From Telluribacter roseus (GTDB taxonomy: Bacteria; Bacteroidota; Bacteroidia; Cytophagales; Spirosomataceae): a stretch of 64,000 nt of DNA. The DNA is taken from assembly GCF_017355915.2 (NCBI RefSeq), contig NZ_JAFEUV020000003.1, forward strand, positions 256,858-320,857, given 5' to 3'. Shown here one piece after another: positions 3,474-14,572 of this stretch (positions within the stretch are counted from its first letter, which is position 1; every line of letters starts with the position of its first letter). Under the pieces are notes generated by a model. That model was not told the DNA's origin. It did not search any database and worked only from the letters and a program-made list of their open reading frames with translations. The position numbers and the translations under genes are program-made.

Positions 3474-3893
3474 ACAGTCAGGAGATATGATACCAGTACG
3501 TGTTTCAAAACCTATAAGCGGGAAGTGCCGGGCCTGATCTTGCATCAGTACAGTAAAATCAACCAGAAAGCTTTCAGAGTGTTACCAGCCCAGTACAGGT
3601 ACATCGTGTAATGGCTGGTACAGATAAAGGTAGTATCCGTTTTGGTGGTAGTAAGTTACACAGATAGTCTGAGTATCCGAAGGAGTTTTTAGTGAGTGGT
3701 AGGGGAGAGGCTCGCCCTGTTTTAGTACTCATAAGGGCAGGGAGGAGGTACATATCAGCTACCGCGCTCCTGCCCAACCCTAAAAATTCTGGATCAGCGT
3801 AGGAGTGCCCTGTGGTTACTGCGTATATTGGCGGCGTTTTAACCGGGGGCGGGCTTACAGGCAGTCCCCATCCCTCCATCAAACCTGCTATCT
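3474..3893. other. Intergenic region, no gene supported
   Basis: About 420 bases between two divergent genes. A 102-codon minus-strand frame (3574-3882) exists, but it has no family resemblance and a Pro-rich composition unlike a folded protein. A loose inverted repeat TACCAGCC...GGCTGGTA lies near 3581-3618. I see no TAnnTTTG box. Confidence 0.4.
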
Positions 3894-4379
3894 ATGCTCA
3901 AGACTACGACGCTGCTATTCGTATTACTACTCCTGTTAAGTGGCTCCCGCTGTACATCCCATAAAGAAGAGGTAGAGCCGGTCAAAGAATCCAGTTGTTT
4001 TGAGGGCAAGTGGGGCAATGACTATCTGCTGTGTGGCCCCGAGAACAGCGGCCGACCGGGAAGAGGCAGCCTCGCTAAACGGAAGGAAGAAGAACTGTGG
4101 CTCACCTTCTCCGCCGATAATAAGGGCGTATTTCACTTCTATGATTGCCAGAATAAGACCCGCTTCCGCGACGGCATCCCCTTCGTCTACACCCTCAACG
4201 GCAACCAGATTACCTTTCAATGGCAGGGTGACACTGAGGAGGTACATACGTACGGGGCCATCTTTCACTTCCGCGATACCTTTCAGTACGAGTGCCGCAA
4301 CGATACGCTCTTCTTTACCGATGGGCTCATGAAAAACACCATGTACAACGGCGCTTCCTACTTTGTCCGCCGCGAATAA
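3894..4379 (+). CDS. Secreted hypothetical protein, possible lipoprotein
   Basis: The 161-residue product has an N-terminal signal (MLKTTTLLFVLLLLLSGSRC); Cys20 could be lipidated, although Ser-Arg before it makes a poor lipobox. The mature domain contains several cysteines (CFEGKWGNDYLLC, YDCQNKTRF, YECRNDTLFF) and a GKWGNDY start followed by strand-like repeats (FTFSADNKGVFHFY, ITFQWQGDTEEV), similar in style to lipocalin-like secreted domains. No function can be given. It is a monocistron between a divergent gene and the EEP-family gene 136 bases downstream. Confidence 0.55.
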   Translation: MLKTTTLLFVLLLLLSGSRCTSHKEEVEPVKESSCFEGKWGNDYLLCGPENSGRPGRGSLAKRKEEELWLTFSADNKGVFHFYDCQNKTRFRDGIPFVYTLNGNQITFQWQGDTEEVHTYGAIFHFRDTFQYECRNDTLFFTDGLMKNTMYNGASYFVRRE

Positions 4380-4515
4380 CCCGGACGTGTGCATCCAACC
4401 CAGGAGCCTCCCTAGAGGAGGAACTGAGGCGGCCGCCGCGTGGGAGGTCTAAACTATACAAATACAAATTCCCTATAAATCCCTAAACCCAATTCTCCTA
4501 ATCAAAGTACCTTGT

Positions 4516-5346
4516 ATGAATTTCAGAAGTCAATCCATTGCTTTGGCACTGGCCGCCTGGGTCAGCCTCTTCACCGGACTCACCACCGCCCAATCCTCCG
4601 CTGCCAAAGCGCAGCCTCCGGTGCTGAAAGTAATGACCTACAACATCCGCATCGCCAGTCCGCCTGCCAAGGGGTGGGGCGTGCAGGACCTACCCGCCAC
4701 GGCGGCGGTCATCAACCGGACCCAGCCCGATCTGGTGGCCCTGCAGGAAGTGGATGTATTTACCGACCGCTCCGGCAAAAACTCCCACCAGGCGCGGGAA
4801 CTGGCCGAACTTACCGGCATGCACTACCACTTTGCCAAAGCCGTCGACCGCAGCAACGGCGACTACGGCGTAGCCATTCTTTCCCGCTATCCGATCCGGA
4901 AGGCCGAGAGCTACCGGTTGACGTACCTGACCAACCACCCCGAGGCGGAGATCCGGGCGGCGGCAGTGGTCACCGTCAAAACGCCCCTGGGTAAGGTAGT
5001 ATTCATCTCCGCGCACCTGGACCACATCAGCGACCAGGACCGCGCCCACCAGATCCAGCAGCTCAACGACATCATCCGGAAGTACCGCAAGTACCCCGTG
5101 ATCCTGGGAGCGGACCTGAATGCCCGTCCCGCCAATCCGGTACTCAAAGGGCTGGAGGCGAACTTTGAACTACCCTGCACCGACTGCCCCCTGACCTTCC
5201 CGGCCGACCAGCCCGACCGTACCCTCGACTACCTGATGCTAAGCCGGAAGGCCACCCAGAAGTTTAAAAGGCTGTCCTACCAGGTCGTCCCTGAACCCTA
5301 CGCGTCGGATCACCTGCCGCTGATGATGGAGATTAGTAGGAAGTGA
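4516..5346 (+). CDS. Secreted endonuclease/exonuclease/phosphatase family protein
   Basis: The 276-residue product begins with a signal peptide ending near TTAQSS and continues with a complete EEP fold. The conserved metal and phosphate ligands are visible: Asn43 in MTYNIR, Glu78 in LQEVD, the AHLDH motif, GADLNA and the C-terminal SDHLP motif. The family hydrolyses phosphodiesters in nucleic acids, lipids or small molecules with Mg2+. Secreted single-domain members of this size in Bacteroidota are commonly of unknown substrate. No partner gene is evident. Start ATG 4516 gives the only sensible signal peptide. Confidence 0.85.
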   Translation: MNFRSQSIALALAAWVSLFTGLTTAQSSAAKAQPPVLKVMTYNIRIASPPAKGWGVQDLPATAAVINRTQPDLVALQEVDVFTDRSGKNSHQARELAELTGMHYHFAKAVDRSNGDYGVAILSRYPIRKAESYRLTYLTNHPEAEIRAAAVVTVKTPLGKVVFISAHLDHISDQDRAHQIQQLNDIIRKYRKYPVILGADLNARPANPVLKGLEANFELPCTDCPLTFPADQPDRTLDYLMLSRKATQKFKRLSYQVVPEPYASDHLPLMMEISRK

Positions 5347-5372
5347 GGTAAAATATGTTGATTAAGTTTGAT

Positions 5373-5402
5373 GCCTTTACTGCTGTTAATAGCAGTAAAG
5401 GC
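5373..5402. terminator. Perfect 12-bp inverted repeat after the EEP gene
   Basis: GCCTTTACTGCT, a 6-base loop, then AGCAGTAAAGGC, 26 bases after the stop of the EEP gene. The arms pair perfectly, but no T-run follows on either strand, so it may be a weak terminator or a boundary hairpin of the AT-rich insert that starts here. Confidence 0.4.
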
Positions 5403-5599
5403 TAAGCTCCATTCCCCGTATTGATGCCTAAGATACCGTTTGATAAAATTATGAAGTATAGAGGCAGTGCTGGAGGGCAACTGCGTATATTCGGGGATGT
5501 CATAGTAGGTCTTGGCCCCTTTGGCTTTTTCTAATACATCATTAAATAACATAACTTAAAAGCAAAATTATCGAGTTGTTCTACCACTCTACATAAGCT

Positions 5600-7381
5600 A
5601 TGGAAAGTAAGAAAATTACTAAAAACCACAGGAAAGAGTATTCCTCACGAGGAAATGTAAAGCATTATCTTGAAGTTTGGCATCATGGCCTTAATGAATA
5701 TCGTGAGTTTAGCTCATCAGACTACGATGTTCTGATGAATAAGGTAGATGCCTACGTATTGAAGCTAGAAGAAAAGTGGAAGAATCTTAAAGAAAAGCAG
5801 AACCTATTGCTTTCTAAGGAATCTAGTTTACGAGAGGCGGAGAAGAGAACCAAATCAGCCCAAGCTGATTTACGTGCAATGGATGAGCTTCTGCTATCTA
5901 CCTTGGATATAGACGATGCTATTAATTGGGACTCATTAAAAGATAAAACAATATTTAATGAGCCTAATCCACAATACTCACTAGACAAGCAGATCAATAA
6001 AGTTGATAAGCCAAGAGCTTATGTTGAGAAAGAGCTTCCAGTAAAGCCAGATTTAGAATTTATAAAATATAAGCCAAAGTTTTCCCTAGTGGATATGATA
6101 TTCCCTTTTTTGAAAAAGAAGAAGGTGGAAAGGGTAGATGCTTTATATAAAAATGATTTATCAAGTTGGGAGCAAAAGGTGCATGAGATAAGTCAAGAAA
6201 ACGAAGAGGGTAGGAGGCAATATGAAATAGATGTAAAGAAGTATGAAAAAGAGGTTGAGCGAGTGAAGCAAAAAAATAAGTTGGAGTGTAAGGACTGGAT
6301 GGAACGGGAACAGAAGTTTTATGAAAAGCAGAATTTATATAATTTGAAAGTTGATAAGCTAAAAGCAGATTATCACAATCAAGTACCTGCTGCAATAATA
6401 GAGGCTTGTGAAATAGTCCTATCTAACTCTCTTTATCCTGACTTTATCAATAAGAACTTTGAGATTGATTACAATCCGGAAAATAAAATTCTAATTGTTG
6501 AATACTCTTTGCCTGCTCCTGAACTTCTACCGACTATTCAAGAAGTAAAGTTTATGAAGAATGAGCTCAAAGAGTATCACGTATCAGAAAGTCAAAAAAC
6601 GAAAAATTATGATTCTGTTATTTACAAATTGACTTTACGTACTATACATGAACTCTTTGAGGCAGATGAGGTCGATGCTTTGAATGCAGTTACTTTTAAT
6701 GGATGGGTTAATTCTATTGATAAGTCGACAGGTCGGCGTGTCAATAATTGTATCGTTTCAATACAAGTAAAAAAAGATGAATTTGAGAAAGTTGACCTTC
6801 AACATGTTGATCCAAAGGCTTGCTTTAAAAGCTTAAAGGGGGTAGGTAGTAGTAAGCTCACTGGATTATCTGCTGTTCAGCCTATATTAAAGATTGATAA
6901 AAGTGATAAGAGATTTGTGCCTCATTATGATGTAGCAGATAGCCTTGATGATACTACTAATATTGCAAGTATGGGATGGGAAGACTTCGAACATTTGATT
7001 AGAGAGGTTTTTGAAAAAGAATTTAATCAAAGTGGTGGAGAGGTTAAAGTAACACAGGCTAGCAAAGATGGTGGTGTAGATGTTATTGCTTTCGACCCAG
7101 ATCCGATAAGAGGAGGGAAAATTGTTATTCAAGCAAAAAGATATACAAATACGGTTGGGGTCTCAGCAGTTAGAGACTTGTACGGAACGGTAATGAATGA
7201 AGGAGCAACAAAAGGTATTCTTGTGACTACTGCAGATTATGGACCTGATGCTTATGAGTTTTCAAAGGGTAAGCCAATTACCTTAATGAACGGCGCTAAT
7301 TTGCTTTACCTGCTGGAAAAGCATGGTCATAAGGCGAAAATTGACATTAGGGAGGCTAAGCTTCTTATGAAAGGGCAATAA
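5600..7381 (+). CDS. Coiled-coil protein with C-terminal Mrr-type restriction endonuclease domain
   Basis: This 593-residue protein has a charged, helical N-terminal half (about residues 40-260) rich in Lys/Glu that reads as coiled coil. The middle part (about 265-440) is not recognised. The C-terminal domain (about 460-590) is of the Mrr_cat type: GWEDFEHLIREVF, then DGGVDVIA with Asp490/Asp494, then the QAK motif at 511-513, then GILVTTADYG. This is a PD-(D/E)xK nuclease with the acidic residue and QxK typical of Mrr enzymes that cut modified DNA. The gene is clearly AT-rich (23 of 60 bases G+C at 6241-6300, against 44 of 60 at 8221-8280), which suggests recent transfer. It is alone on its strand with a strong terminator. 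Likely role: defence against foreign DNA (inference). Confidence 0.8.
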   Translation: MESKKITKNHRKEYSSRGNVKHYLEVWHHGLNEYREFSSSDYDVLMNKVDAYVLKLEEKWKNLKEKQNLLLSKESSLREAEKRTKSAQADLRAMDELLLSTLDIDDAINWDSLKDKTIFNEPNPQYSLDKQINKVDKPRAYVEKELPVKPDLEFIKYKPKFSLVDMIFPFLKKKKVERVDALYKNDLSSWEQKVHEISQENEEGRRQYEIDVKKYEKEVERVKQKNKLECKDWMEREQKFYEKQNLYNLKVDKLKADYHNQVPAAIIEACEIVLSNSLYPDFINKNFEIDYNPENKILIVEYSLPAPELLPTIQEVKFMKNELKEYHVSESQKTKNYDSVIYKLTLRTIHELFEADEVDALNAVTFNGWVNSIDKSTGRRVNNCIVSIQVKKDEFEKVDLQHVDPKACFKSLKGVGSSKLTGLSAVQPILKIDKSDKRFVPHYDVADSLDDTTNIASMGWEDFEHLIREVFEKEFNQSGGEVKVTQASKDGGVDVIAFDPDPIRGGKIVIQAKRYTNTVGVSAVRDLYGTVMNEGATKGILVTTADYGPDAYEFSKGKPITLMNGANLLYLLEKHGHKAKIDIREAKLLMKGQ

Positions 7382-7388
7382 TTTTGTT

Positions 7389-7425
7389 TAGAAAGATGCC
7401 TCTTAAGGCATCTTTCTAGCTTTTA
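7389..7425 (+). terminator. Rho-independent terminator of the Mrr-type gene
   Basis: AGAAAGATGCC (7390-7400), loop TCTTAA, GGCATCTTTCT (7407-7417): perfect 11-base arms, followed by CTTTT. It lies 8 bases after the stop codon. Confidence 0.8.
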
Positions 7426-7600
7426 ACTTATTCTATAAAGAGTATATATTTAATTAATATTTTGATTCGTTTTTGTTGATTATACCATTGGAATGTCTAA
7501 TTTATTGATATTACAGATTGCATTTATTTATTAAGCTTACACTTCGTTCCGCCCATTCTTTCTTCCCCTAATTATCTTCTCCTACCTATTGCTTCCCCTT

Positions 7601-7608
7601 TACCTTTG
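7601..7608 (+). promoter_or_regulatory. Candidate Bacteroidota -7 box of the tricorn-like gene
   Basis: TACCTTTG matches TAnnTTTG and lies 54 bases before the ATG at 7663. No clear -33 TTTG is visible at the usual distance, so the call rests on the -7 box and its position. Confidence 0.45.
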
Positions 7609-7662
7609 TAGTACTATTGCGCTGAGAGTAAGGAAGTAGCGCATTTTTAGCCATCAATAACC

Positions 7663-10600
7663 ATGAACCACATGAAAAGTATCGCCCGCCGGAGCCATAG
7701 GCCCGGCCGCGCCCGTCTGGCATCCCTGAGGCTGCTGCGGGCGTTTTCTGTTTTTGCCCTGTGTGGCCTGCTTAGTCAGGCACAAGCCTTTGCGCAAGGA
7801 ACGCGGCTGCTCCAGCAGCCTACCCTGAGTAGTACCCACATAGCCTTCGTGTACGGCGGCGACCTGTGGGTGACGGACCTGAACGGGCAGGGACTACGCC
7901 GCCTCACGAGTACCCCCGCCGTGGAGCGTGACCCCTCTTTTTCGCCTGATGGCAAGCTGGTGGCCTTTACCTCCAACCGCTCGGGCAGCAACGCAGTCTA
8001 TACCGTACCCGTAGAAGGTGGTGACGCCACCCGCCTCACCTGGCACCCCAGCGGCTCCTCCGTCCGCGGCTGGACGCCCGACGGCAGGCAGGTACTGTAT
8101 GCCTCGTCGCGCGATGCCGCCCCCACCGCCTACGAGCGCCTGTGGACGGTACCGACTACGGGTGGACCCTCGACGATGCTGACGCAGCAGTGGGGCTTCG
8201 ATGCCTCCTACGCCCCCGACGGACAGCGGCTGGTCCTCGACCGCATGGACCGCTGGGATGCGGAGTGGCGCGGGTACCGGGGCGGCCAGAATACCCCCCT
8301 GATCATCCTGAACCTCAAGGACCGCTCGGAGGAGCTGCTCCCCAACGCCTCGACGGTAGACGTACAGCCGCTGTGGCTGGGCGAAACCATCTACTTCCTG
8401 TCGGACCGCGACGGTACCACTAACATCTGGTCGTACGCTCCGGCCACCAAAGCCATTAAACAAATAACCTCCCTGAAAGGCAGCGATATCAAGTCACTGG
8501 CCGGAACGGCCCAGCAACTGGCCTACGAGCGGGACGGCTACCTGTACCTGCTCAATCCCGCGACGGGTGCCAGCCGCCAGCTTCCTATCACCATTCAGGG
8601 GGATTTTCCCTGGGCGGCTACGAAGTGGGAGGATGTGACGAAGTCGGCCCGCTCGGCTTCGCTGTCACCCGCGGGTAAGCGGGCTATCATGGAGGCCAGG
8701 GGAGAGATATTTACGGTACCGGTCGAGAACGGCGATGCCCGCAACATTACCCAAAGCTCCGGCACCGCCGATCGCGCCCCCATCTGGTCGCCCAGCGGCA
8801 ACGAGATCGCCTGGTTTTCGGATCAGGGTCGCAAGGGCTATAGCCTGATGATTGCCGCTCAGGATGGTATGTCGAAGCCCCGTTCTATCTCCATCGGTGA
8901 GTCGAAGATGGCCTGGGAGCCGTGCTGGTCGCCCGATGGCAAGTACATAGCCTTTGTGGATGATGATGTACGGGTACGGGTCGTGGACCTGAAAGCCGGT
9001 ACGGTACGCACGGTGGATGTGGGCGGTACCAACCTCGAGCGCGGCGACATGGGGCTGACCTGGTCGCCCGACTCGCAGTGGCTGGCGTACAGCAAGAGCG
9101 GGAAGAACAATTTCAGAGGTATCCACCTGTGGTCGCAGAAAAGTGCCAAAACGCAGCCCATCACCAACCCTATGGCCGATGCCTTTGCCCCGATCTGGGA
9201 CCTGGACAAAAAGCACCTGTACTTCCTGGCCAGTACCGATAGGGCCCTGGGTTCCGGCTGGGCCAACACCAGCTCCATGACCGCCCGCCCCGAGTACGCG
9301 GTCTACGTGGTGAACCTGCGCAAGGAAGACCCGTCGCCCTTCAAGCCTAAAAGTGATGAGGAAGAGGTAAAAGAAGAAAAGCCCGCCGTAGCCATGCAGA
9401 AGCCGGAGGATAAGCCCAAAGGCAAGGCGGCTAAAGGCAAAGGCTCCAAAGAAACCGCCGCCAAAGACTCCACCGCTCAAAAGCTGGACGTAGTACAGGT
9501 GGACTTTGATGGCATCGAGCGCCGGACCATGGCGCTGCCCCTGCCCAGGCGCAACTACCCGCTGCTGATCAATGGCCCGGCCGGTACGGTATTTATCGGG
9601 GAGCAGAAGCCCAATACTCCGGGCCTCACGCTGCAGAAGTTTAAGCTGGACGACCGCGAGGCCAAGGAGTACGTAGGAGGAGCCAGCCAGATATCGGTCA
9701 CCGCCGACGGTACCAAGATGCTCGCCAAGGTAGGTAACAGCTGGAAGATGATGGATACCAACAAGCCCAGCGGCTCGGACGGCAAGGAAGTAAAAGTAAA
9801 CCTGCAGATGAAGCTGGACCGGAGCGAAGAGTGGCAGCAGATGTTTGAGGAGGCCTGGCGCTACGAGCGGGACTACTTCTACGACCCCAACATGCACGGC
9901 CGCAACTGGCAGGAGGTATACGAGCGCTACGCGCCGCTGGTACCCTACATCAAGCACCGCGCCGACCTTACCACCATCCTCGACCAGGTCAACGGTGAGC
10001 TGTCGGTAGGGCACAGCTTTGTATTTGGCGGCGACTACCCCGAGGTGGATAAGCATTCGGTAGGGCTGCTGGGGGCAGATCTGGTAGCGGACAACAAGCG
10101 CTGGAAGATCAAACGCATCTACACCACCGAAAGCTGGAATCCCGAACTATCCAGTCCGCTTGACCGTCCAGGTATCAATGTGCAGGAGGGCTACTACCTC
10201 GTGGGCATCAACGGGCAGGAAATGACCGCTGCCGACGATCCGTACCGCATGCTGGATGGTACCGTAGACCGGCAGACGGTGTTGCATATCAACAAGACAC
10301 CCCAGTTTGAAGGAGCGTGGAAAGAGATCGTGAAGCCTATCGGCAATGAGAATGCCCTGCGCCAACGGGCCTGGGTGGAGGACAACCGCCGCCTGGTCGA
10401 CAAGCTCTCCAACGGTAAGCTGGCCTATATATGGGTACCCAATACGGGCGGCAATGGCTTTGTGTCCTTCAACCGCTACTACTTTGCGCAGCAGGACAAG
10501 GAAGGCGCTGTGATCGACGAGCGCTACAACGGAGGTGGTCTGCTGGACGACTACATGGTAGACCTGATGACGCGCAGCCTGCGGGCTTCCCTCACCAACG

Positions 10601-11031
10601 AGGTACCCAACGGCGCACCCATTCGCCTGCCGGCCGGTATCATCGGGCCCAAGGTACTACTCATCAACGAGCTGGCCGGCTCGGGCGGGGACTTCTTCCC
10701 GTGGGTGTTCCGGCAGCAGAAGGTAGGTCCGCTCATCGGTGCCCGCACCTGGGGAGGCCTGGTGAAGTCGTCGGTACACTACCCGCTGGTGGATGGAGGA
10801 GCTCTCACCGCCCCGGACAACGCCGTATTTGATCCGATCAACAAAAAGTGGGTGGCTGAAAACGAAGGCGTAGCGCCCGACATTGAGGTACGCCAGGATA
10901 CGAAGTCGCTGGACAGTGGCCGCGATCCGCAGCTGGAACGGGCCGTGCAGGAAGCCCTGCGCCTGCTGGAGCAGAAGGGTACCCTCAATGTCACGGTACC
11001 GGCCTACTCCACCCCGGCGGTGCATAAGTGA
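7663..11031 (+). CDS. Secreted tricorn-like protease (peptidase family S41 with beta-propeller)
   Basis: The 1122-residue product has an N-terminal signal region ending near AQAFAQG. PD40/TolB-type propeller repeats follow (DPSFSPDGKLVAFTSNR, PIWSPSGNEIAWFSD, CWSPDGKYIAFVDD). A Lys/Glu/Ala-rich linker (about 565-610) precedes the protease half: helical C1 domain, a PDZ domain (about 815-880) and the S41 core. His784 in VGHSF and Ser1007 in NELAGSGGD are the expected catalytic His and Ser, and NEGVAPDIEV fits the late Glu region. The architecture and length match tricorn. Unlike archaeal tricorn it is exported, so it probably degrades peptides in the periplasm or outside. ATG 7672 is an alternative start. 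Monocistronic. Confidence 0.9.
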   Translation: MNHMKSIARRSHRPGRARLASLRLLRAFSVFALCGLLSQAQAFAQGTRLLQQPTLSSTHIAFVYGGDLWVTDLNGQGLRRLTSTPAVERDPSFSPDGKLVAFTSNRSGSNAVYTVPVEGGDATRLTWHPSGSSVRGWTPDGRQVLYASSRDAAPTAYERLWTVPTTGGPSTMLTQQWGFDASYAPDGQRLVLDRMDRWDAEWRGYRGGQNTPLIILNLKDRSEELLPNASTVDVQPLWLGETIYFLSDRDGTTNIWSYAPATKAIKQITSLKGSDIKSLAGTAQQLAYERDGYLYLLNPATGASRQLPITIQGDFPWAATKWEDVTKSARSASLSPAGKRAIMEARGEIFTVPVENGDARNITQSSGTADRAPIWSPSGNEIAWFSDQGRKGYSLMIAAQDGMSKPRSISIGESKMAWEPCWSPDGKYIAFVDDDVRVRVVDLKAGTVRTVDVGGTNLERGDMGLTWSPDSQWLAYSKSGKNNFRGIHLWSQKSAKTQPITNPMADAFAPIWDLDKKHLYFLASTDRALGSGWANTSSMTARPEYAVYVVNLRKEDPSPFKPKSDEEEVKEEKPAVAMQKPEDKPKGKAAKGKGSKETAAKDSTAQKLDVVQVDFDGIERRTMALPLPRRNYPLLINGPAGTVFIGEQKPNTPGLTLQKFKLDDREAKEYVGGASQISVTADGTKMLAKVGNSWKMMDTNKPSGSDGKEVKVNLQMKLDRSEEWQQMFEEAWRYERDYFYDPNMHGRNWQEVYERYAPLVPYIKHRADLTTILDQVNGELSVGHSFVFGGDYPEVDKHSVGLLGADLVADNKRWKIKRIYTTESWNPELSSPLDRPGINVQEGYYLVGINGQEMTAADDPYRMLDGTVDRQTVLHINKTPQFEGAWKEIVKPIGNENALRQRAWVEDNRRLVDKLSNGKLAYIWVPNTGGNGFVSFNRYYFAQQDKEGAVIDERYNGGGLLDDYMVDLMTRSLRASLTNEVPNGAPIRLPAGIIGPKVLLINELAGSGGDFFPWVFRQQKVGPLIGARTWGGLVKSSVHYPLVDGGALTAPDNAVFDPINKKWVAENEGVAPDIEVRQDTKSLDSGRDPQLERAVQEALRLLEQKGTLNVTVPAYSTPAVHK

Positions 11032-13750: not shown

Positions 13751-14572
13751 ATGAAAAGTATGAACAAGCAGGAAAAGAGTGTTCGGAAAATGATCATTAA
13801 TGGGATTTGTCTTTTCTTTTTGGTGGGGGCCGTTGCCTGTAACTCTTCAGAAAAGCAGGGAGATACCGCATCAGAACAAATGTCTCAGGAAGGTAGTGAT
13901 GCGGCAGCCGGAAATACTGCTGGCGGTACCTGGGATAGTAACCGCTTTAACACCACTTTTGCTTCTAACAACCGATATGGGGAGTGGGACGCAAACCGTG
14001 ATAGCTACCTGGATGAGAATGAGTATACCCGGGGCTTCTACCGTACCTGGGACACCAACCGGGATAACAAAGTAGATCAGAACGAGTGGAATACTGCCTC
14101 CAGGGACTTTGGAATGCAGAACCAGACCTGGGACAAATGGGACTCCAACCGGGATGGATCTCTGGACGAGAAAGAGTACCGAACAGGCTTTAACCAGAGT
14201 GGCTGGTACCGTGAGTGGGACGGCGATGGAGATAAGCGTCTGAGCCAGCAGGAATATAGTACGGGTCTGTTTGGCCGCTGGGACCGAAACGGTGACAGTA
14301 TGCTGGATGAAAACGAATACACCCCATATAATACCTACTATGGTAACGGTGGAACTGGTAATGGTATGAATAACGGTACTGGAACCGGCACCGGGACAGG
14401 TACGGGTACTGATAGAACCGGCACCGGCAATAATGGTACGGGTAATACAGGAACCGGAACTGGTAATGGAAATGGAACTGGTACCGGAACGGGTACTGGC
14501 AACGGAACCGGAACTGGTAATGGTACCGGAACGGGTACTGGCACCGGTAACAGACCTGGTAGTGGAAGCTAA
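13751..14572 (+). CDS. EF-hand-repeat lipoprotein with Gly-Thr-Asn low-complexity tail
   Basis: The 273-residue product has a lipoprotein signal with lipobox GAVAC (Cys at about residue 30; translation may begin at ATG 13751 or at the internal ATG 13790). Five regularly spaced EF-hand-like Ca2+ loops follow, each introduced by [50 protein letters not shown] and [12 protein letters not shown]. From about residue 200 to the end the protein is almost pure Gly/Thr/Asn with GTGTGNGT-type repeats. The first part should bind calcium in the periplasm or on the surface; the tail is probably a flexible, possibly surface-exposed extension. No partner gene is evident. Confidence 0.8.

Follow-up and report, generated by a model that had tools for sequence, protein, structure and literature searches.

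MspJI and EcoKMrr share the Mrr-cat motif (D/E)..(D/E/Q)xK in their nuclease domains (passage in PMC3874153). The membrane nuclease SNIPE has a DUF4041 domain that binds a phage tape-measure protein (passages in PMC12904381 and PMC13190303); conservation among its homologues is reported to be highest in the nuclease and lowest at the N-terminus, and 34% of them have no predicted transmembrane segment (passages in PMC13190303). Ter systems have been discussed as anti-phage (passages in PMC7824862 and PMC3710099), and TerD as a possible binder of nucleotide derivatives (passage in PMC7159879). Here we compare with these systems a gene of Telluribacter roseus, a member of the Spirosomataceae, that lies at 5600-7381 on the plus strand of a stretch of 64,000 nucleotides (contig NZ_JAFEUV020000003.1, positions 256,858 to 320,857; hereafter the window). 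It encodes an Mrr-type nuclease preceded by a long coiled coil and a middle domain (MID), and the product is probably a mobile, stand-alone DNA nuclease, predicted to act against phages or other elements.

Architecture of the predicted nuclease

The gene starts with ATG and encodes 593 amino acids (aa), arranged as a small N-terminal domain, a coiled coil, MID and a C-terminal Mrr_cat domain. The last of these, a PD-(D/E)xK nuclease at residues 456-571 (6965-7312, plus strand), is recognized by Pfam with an E value of 3e-32, in agreement with an earlier reading of the locus (the original prediction), which had named an Mrr-type nuclease. Apart from Mrr_cat, the only Pfam family to score over its cut-off is the related NA-iREase1. 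The active-site residues D494 (7079-7081), Q511 (7130-7132) and K513 (7136-7138), all on the plus strand, are invariant together with E464 in all 32 rows of alignment A1, which includes the window's protein, and again in every one of the 32 proteins that make up a second set (12 from Bacteroidota, 11 from viral contigs and 9 from plasmids); the two sets overlap in some genes, such as that of Runella. When identity to the query was measured over the nuclease (residues 456-589), the MID core (263-400), the coiled coil (61-227) and the N-terminal part (6-60), the values were 0.80, 0.46, 0.27 and 0.24 for the 12 Bacteroidota proteins, 0.78, 0.43, 0.26 and 0.27 for the viral set, and 0.57, 0.30, 0.19 and 0.09 for the plasmid set. 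High conservation of the nuclease as an artefact of 8-residue search patterns was considered and rejected, because it persists in sets found otherwise; the Bacteroidota set came from whole-protein or MID searches and not from nuclease-domain patterns.

An AlphaFold2 model of the full protein, built on a 32-row alignment (predicted local distance difference test, pLDDT, 80.5; predicted template modelling score, pTM, 0.60), begins with three strands, followed by helices at residues 42-95 and 169-259 and by a compact middle domain; the nuclease comes last, after a linker that is poorly predicted. Residues 257-593 were also modelled separately (second model; pLDDT 83.1, pTM 0.52). The two long helices support the coiled-coil half proposed in the original prediction (residues 42-262; 5723-6385, plus strand), which also contains a Pro-rich linker and, at about residues 160-175, a short hydrophobic and basic stretch that recurs in homologues. 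At the N-terminus, residues 6-60 (5615-5779, plus strand) comprise three strands and the start of a helix, are poorly conserved apart from a few near-invariant residues, and have no notable Pfam match. An AP2-like or integrase-arm-like fold had been guessed for this part from the strand order in the model and found no support. Mrr_N or another known reader at the N-terminus was likewise rejected, Pfam searches to an E value of 5 over 24 members having given one chance-level match in a single member.

Comparison with restriction enzymes and SNIPE

Among solved structures, the nuclease domain of the second model is nearest to those of AspBHI (Z score 11.1, root-mean-square deviation (rmsd) 3.1) and MspJI (Z 10.7, rmsd 2.8), over 124 residues each, with AF1548 and LlaBIII tied with these two within one Z unit. 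Foldseek comparison with viral proteins returned chiefly Mrr-type nucleases and RPB5-like proteins, and sequence searches against the PDB gave no match better than E 0.12. The original prediction had found the architecture impossible to match to a named system. This did not hold: the PADLOC model mREase_IV (PDLC03663), which stands for type IV candidates, covers residues 233-579, that is, MID plus nuclease, with an E value of 9.9e-60, and all 32 aligned proteins, the window's included, match it. The first 184 of its 544 positions stay unaligned to the nuclease protein.

Given the PADLOC name and the MspJI-like nuclease, the conventional reading is type IV restriction, in which MID or the N-terminal part would read a modified base and Mrr_cat would cut nearby, as in MspJI. 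The motif that MspJI shares with EcoKMrr also speaks for it, and the nuclease protein resembles EcoK Mrr in ending in an Mrr_cat domain with that motif, represented here by the invariant D494, Q511 and K513. No base-reading domain is recognized, however, among the Pfam matches named above. The SRA-like N-terminal domain of MspJI and AspBHI is not recognized in the protein, which has a long coiled coil; an SRA-like domain for binding 5-methylcytosine gave no Pfam sequence match, and the fold lists barely cover MID. Unlike EcoK Mrr, the protein has no Mrr_N among Pfam matches to E 1, whereas the same library scores the Mrr_N of a gene neighbouring one homologue (L119) at 5e-24. CoCoNuT and McrBC differ further, as the nuclease protein has no NTPase domain and its adjacent genes encode Exo_endo_phos and tricorn-like proteins, not McrB or McrC. 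The literature searched contained no test of modification dependence for the family matching mREase_IV. On balance, we regard type IV restriction as rather unlikely.

With SNIPE, the protein has in common that a single gene encodes a variable N-terminal part, a middle recognition domain and a best-conserved C-terminal nuclease. It differs in that DUF4041 is absent from its Pfam matches to E 1, although the same library scores the DUF4041 of a Kocuria protein (see below) at 2e-19, and in that Mrr_cat takes the place of the GIY-YIG nuclease. The protein shows no clear membrane segment (highest 19-residue Kyte-Doolittle mean, 1.09), and SNIPE homologues too can be without a predicted one.

MID in ter clusters and beside another nuclease

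MID, a putative sensor at about residues 228-446 (6281-6937, plus strand) that the original prediction had left unrecognized, is modelled as a helix, four strands, a long helix (330-355) and two long strands. DUF4236 proteins carry a homologue of MID in their C-terminal part: hhalign aligned this part of three of them with MID (probability 98.6%, E 1.1e-15, 193 columns), and a MID hidden Markov model (HMM) found 4 of 4 DUF4236 proteins and 0 of 1200 shuffled sequences. A longer profile, begun at residue 140 and run without filters, improved the E. coli DUF4236 match from 1.5e-9 to 1.1e-16, and DUF4236 proteins thus seem to have the helix that precedes MID as well. They differ from the nuclease protein in having an N-terminal DUF4236 domain and no nuclease, and in being set in a ter gene row in three of the four records whose surroundings were viewed. 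In Pseudomonas nitroreducens, the DUF4236 protein with MID (MID HMM, 4e-14) is encoded behind TerD, TerB and TerC genes. On an E. coli IncHI2 plasmid, ATP-grasp, phosphoribosyltransferase, StiP-family and HpcH/HpaI genes are followed by the DUF4236 gene and then by terW; on a K. aerogenes plasmid, the gene lies between HpcH/HpaI and terW. The fourth, from a Polaromonas plasmid, is flanked on each side by about 5-6 kb in which no ter genes are annotated. Relatives of the C-terminal part of the P. nitroreducens protein occur on 2,487 of 72,556 plasmid records, many surely near-copies (2,472 over at least 80% of the query), mostly from Klebsiella, Escherichia, Enterobacter and Salmonella. In the literature found, no function is given for DUF4236, the sole passage concerning a Salmonella insertion.

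MID also occurs in a 415-aa protein of Kocuria rosea, which has a coiled coil and MID (MID HMM, 1.5e-34) without a nuclease. Its gene overlaps by 1 base with a SNIPE-like DUF4041-T5orf172 gene and lies near GmrSD_N and HEPN genes. By these comparisons of sequence, MID is a separable module, common to DUF4236 proteins and found beside another nuclease.

The link to ter clusters raises an alternative in which the protein is an effector of Ter-type stress signalling, MID sensing the nucleoside-like product proposed for ter operons and thereby releasing the nuclease. Consistent with this, the DUF4236 protein whose C-terminal part is homologous to MID is encoded last in the row of ter biosynthetic genes on the E. 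coli plasmid. Two actinomycete members, one on a Streptomyces plasmid and one on a Kitasatospora plasmid, have a TerD domain C-terminal to MID and Mrr_cat (E 6e-24 and 6e-23), a fusion not described in the passages of two papers from a literature search on TerD and Mrr. The published discussion of TerD as a nucleotide-derivative binder and of Ter as anti-phage points the same way. However, TerD, the one ter protein searched for, was found in 0 of 13 tested Bacteroidota genomes that carry the gene and in 1 of 14 that lack it. Dependence on TerD is not supported, and the Polaromonas DUF4236 gene is without annotated ter genes nearby. We consider a Ter effector improbable.

Because MID is common to ter-cluster DUF4236 proteins and is paired with a DUF4041 nuclease, settings in which base reading meets no obvious need, an infection cue is at least as likely as type IV restriction. 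We lean slightly, and tentatively, toward an infection signal (a protein, an entry event or a nucleotide) over a modified base. More speculatively, MID may be a general receptor for infection or stress cues that is plugged into different outputs: a ter component in DUF4236 proteins, a separate DUF4041-T5orf172 nuclease in Kocuria and an attached Mrr nuclease in the gene described here. No housekeeping fold was found for MID in a weak fold test whose lists are filled by the nuclease domain; their sole MID row, a CamS-type protein (Z 6.6, rmsd 3.2, 99 residues), falls below a trustworthy level and was rejected as a known fold. No account of the function of MID was found in the literature searched. 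We rate the nuclease class as already known (PADLOC mREase_IV) and the sensor module as uncharacterized and of wider occurrence, and we do not claim the link between MID and ter as unpublished, the searches for it having covered open-licence papers.

Distribution and base composition

Matches to the protein were found in 18 of the 99 genomes searched, its own included, and extended beyond the Mrr_cat part in only five (G000, G049, G007, G012 and G031). A search of the phylum with the middle domain gave matches in 11 of 395 genomes, again including its own, one of them (G403) only in broken pieces. A scan of a species-genome collection gave at least 37 loci in many phyla, among them one archaeal metagenome-assembled genome (MAG), a lower bound since the scan requires exact 8-residue patterns, while the matches in 206 of 72,556 plasmid records included five with a coverage of 80% or more of the protein. 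Phyla are intermingled in a tree of 32 homologues (587 columns, 13 phylum labels), its starred branches forcing at least four label changes for Pseudomonadota, three for Bacteroidota and three for Bacillota; some labels may be wrong, as many rows are MAGs. The presence of the gene beyond its nuclease part in only five genomes and its scatter over 13 phyla in the tree indicate that it is mobile. Far from recurring with the same neighbours and matching base composition in many related genomes, it is also absent from a congener (G001).

The original prediction had described the gene and its flanks as far richer in AT than their neighbours, and they are. The guanine-plus-cytosine (GC) content of the gene is 0.359 (0.31 at third codon positions, GC3), compared with 0.613 in both neighbours, 4516-5346 (GC3 0.80) and 7663-11031 (GC3 0.77). 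The gaps on either side have values of 0.375 (5347-5599) and 0.317 (7382-7662), and the lowest point of the 1-kb GC profile of the whole window, 0.341, falls inside the gene. The proposed AT-rich island at 5347-7662 is therefore real, but it is AT-rich only to about 7511; the segment 5347-7511 has a GC content of 0.353.

Low GC relative to surroundings is a property of the family. Across 36 of 38 loci (L058 and L067 were dropped for lack of flanking genes, and L050 and L074 are near-copies), the gene has a lower GC than the mean of its flanking genes in 35, with a mean difference of -0.093, and a lower GC3 in 34. It has the lowest GC among flanking open reading frames (ORFs) of at least 200 aa in 23 of the 36 loci, compared with 5.0 expected. 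Gene GC nonetheless tracks host GC (r 0.87). At the near-copy loci L050 and L074, from Planctomycetota MAGs, a second, shortened copy lies 3' of the full gene (L050:10514-11185 and L074:10098-10874; 69% identical, from residue 346 on); that in L050 runs off the contig.

The insertion site in a congener

In the congener, one contig (C23) matches the window up to 3711, with 73-82% identity in pieces, and another (C2) matches again from 7512, with 91% identity, beginning 200 bases from the contig end. The stretch without a counterpart at this site, 3712-7511, is larger than the AT-rich segment and includes two genes of host-like GC. Past the left flank, C23 carries about 3.1 kb with a GC content of 0.383, compared with 0.52 and 0.55 in its flanks, and two genes encoding 322 and 550 aa. 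The 550-aa protein matches RT_UG36, a PADLOC model of the defence-associated reverse transcriptase (DRT) class, with an E value of 9e-173; its Pfam RVT_1 score of 1.4e-5 is below the RVT_1 cut-off. The 322-aa partner has a weak RT_UG35 match only. This two-gene UG36-like cassette (L101:8433-11043) occupies the site corresponding to that of the nuclease gene; nothing relevant to UG36 was found in the literature searched. Both congener contigs end there, and the adjacency of the flanks across the cassette is inferred. In the next genus (G004), an arylsulfatase-like ORF, judged by eye, precedes the tricorn homologue, and cargo of this kind is absent. The AT-rich cargo upstream of the protease gene thus appears to differ between sister species, with a defence-type reverse transcriptase in one and a nuclease in the other.

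No convincing target-site repeats were found bounding the insertion. An IS200-like Y1 transposase of 159 aa is encoded at 928-1407 on the minus strand; it was not tied to the island, as its stretch also matches the congener. The 35 bp between two genes at 4417-4451 have a 91% copy on another contig (C6) of the same genome.

A probable separate transcription unit

The nuclease gene, present in one copy in its 6.3-Mb genome, is separated by 253 bp from the upstream gene for an Exo_endo_phos protein and by 281 bp from the downstream gene for a tricorn-like protease. Between the Exo_endo_phos gene and the nuclease gene, a near-perfect 30-bp palindrome (5373-5402, plus strand) would form an RNA hairpin (5365-5410, -22.7 kcal/mol, z -6.0 vs shuffles), which is the probable end of the upstream transcript. 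A terminator-like hairpin lies directly 3' of the nuclease gene (7388-7419, plus strand; z -5.9 vs shuffles). As both hairpins are far more stable than their shuffles, the gene is probably transcribed alone. A plain terminator scan was near chance (2 sites vs 1.5 in shuffles), promoter-like sites were at chance level (10 vs 7.9), and no RNA element reached gathering scores within 3500-8000.

Two further features of the window were recorded. An 80-aa ORF on the minus strand (5310-5552) spans the left edge of the AT-rich segment and could be a gene remnant, and the protein encoded at 13751-14572 contains repeats of an EF-hand-like D-x-N-x-D stretch and has a long tail rich in Gly, Thr and Asn, as judged by eye.

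Genomic neighbourhoods of homologues

IMG/VR contains 12 contigs with MID-plus-nuclease genes, one of which (L115/L022) apparently carries the same Runella gene as G049/L047. Superinfection-exclusion genes are located where they are co-expressed with the lysogenic repressor. The upstream gene was checked with PHROGs in eight of the 12 viral-contig loci, L115, L120, L125 and L126 falling outside the check, and in five of the eight (L116, L121, L122, L123 and L124) it encodes a CI-like repressor, co-oriented and roughly 5-160 bp away. That of L118 is a divergent anti-repressor, and those of L117 (divergent) and L119 (co-oriented, 581 bp away) have no PHROGs match. A further case comes from a Pseudochrobactrum plasmid, where an HTH_3/S24 repressor gene ends 32 bp before the start of the nuclease gene and the surrounding phage-like early region includes genes for DnaB and RecT. 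No repressor was evident in 15 loci, judged by eye from the first 70 residues of the upstream ORF without a search; in one of these loci, L064, that ORF is a piece of the same protein.

The lack of operon partners noted in the original prediction applies to this locus but not to all others. In addition to the repressors of some viral contigs, an AAA_11/AAA_12 helicase-domain gene precedes the homologue in Agrobacterium (two records) and Xanthomonas, Pfam having been run on the A. pusense and Xanthomonas proteins. A conserved operon partner can be rejected, as none recurs among the 37 loci compared. On the Xanthomonas plasmid (L132:1954-7863), helicase, MID-nuclease and NYN-LOTUS genes stand in a row, possibly a larger version of the system. 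On viral contig L119 (6824-7690), a separate gene with Mrr_N and Mrr_cat lies directly behind the MID-nuclease gene.

Proposed function

We propose that the target of the protein is phage or plasmid DNA entering the cell, and that it would protect either the cell itself or a prophage or plasmid residing there. The coiled coil would assemble the protein, the fast-evolving N-terminal part and MID would recognize a cue associated with the invader, and Mrr_cat, through D494 and Q511-x-K513, would then cleave DNA, as suggested by its family and invariant residues. In favor of defence we count the DRT-type reverse transcriptase at the same site in the congener, the repressors ahead of the gene in some viral contigs, and the GmrSD_N and HEPN genes near the nuclease-less relative in Kocuria. 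Of the self-contained nuclease defence protein envisaged in the original prediction, horizontal acquisition, solitary occurrence at this locus and a probable defence role stand; modified DNA, which the protein was suggested to sense, is a possible cue.

Several observations weigh against a defence nuclease. Model confidence is modest in the nuclease part, with block means of about 47-70 in the full model and 52-93 from the linker on in the second, and folds resembling Mrr_cat are also found in repair enzymes and in proteins that are not nucleases. Among 50,697 phage records there are only 2 matches, each confined to the nuclease part, and sequenced phages thus carry the gene rarely if ever; the repressor-adjacent viral cases stem from IMG/VR contigs and not from phage records, and the upstream gene is no repressor in three of the eight loci tested. 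The tree clusters partly by phylum (19 changes compared with a shuffled mean of 21.9, a value as low being reached in 6 of 200 shuffles). No neighbour family occurs in more than three of 37 loci (391 neighbour proteins; L074 omitted as a near-copy of L050), and no experiment on any family member was found in the literature searched. Some of these points would suit an ordinary gene outside defence, an accessory nuclease of DNA repair or of a mobile element that is merely hitch-hiking: it is solitary and without a recurring partner, it is almost absent from phage records, and the fold lists also contain scores for repair nucleases of the EndoMS type and for RPB5, which is not a nuclease. Such a gene accords poorly with the patchy distribution, the repressor-adjacent position in several viral contigs, the DRT cargo at the congener's site and the fast-evolving non-catalytic half, and we judge it as improbable as a Ter effector. 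A mobile, stand-alone defence nuclease is the reading we prefer.

Implications

Through the homology of MID, three separate things are connected: a solitary nuclease that is widespread, a pair of genes resembling SNIPE, and the DUF4236 protein encoded in ter clusters. Should MID be a general receptor, the gene would represent a class of SNIPE-like nucleases in which self is distinguished from non-self by the sensing of infection and not by DNA modification, and it would help to reveal what is detected by the ter cluster of plasmids. Provided that MID is a sensor, a one-gene nuclease would be far easier to test with phages than a ter cluster of many genes, and how ter acts against phages would become directly testable.

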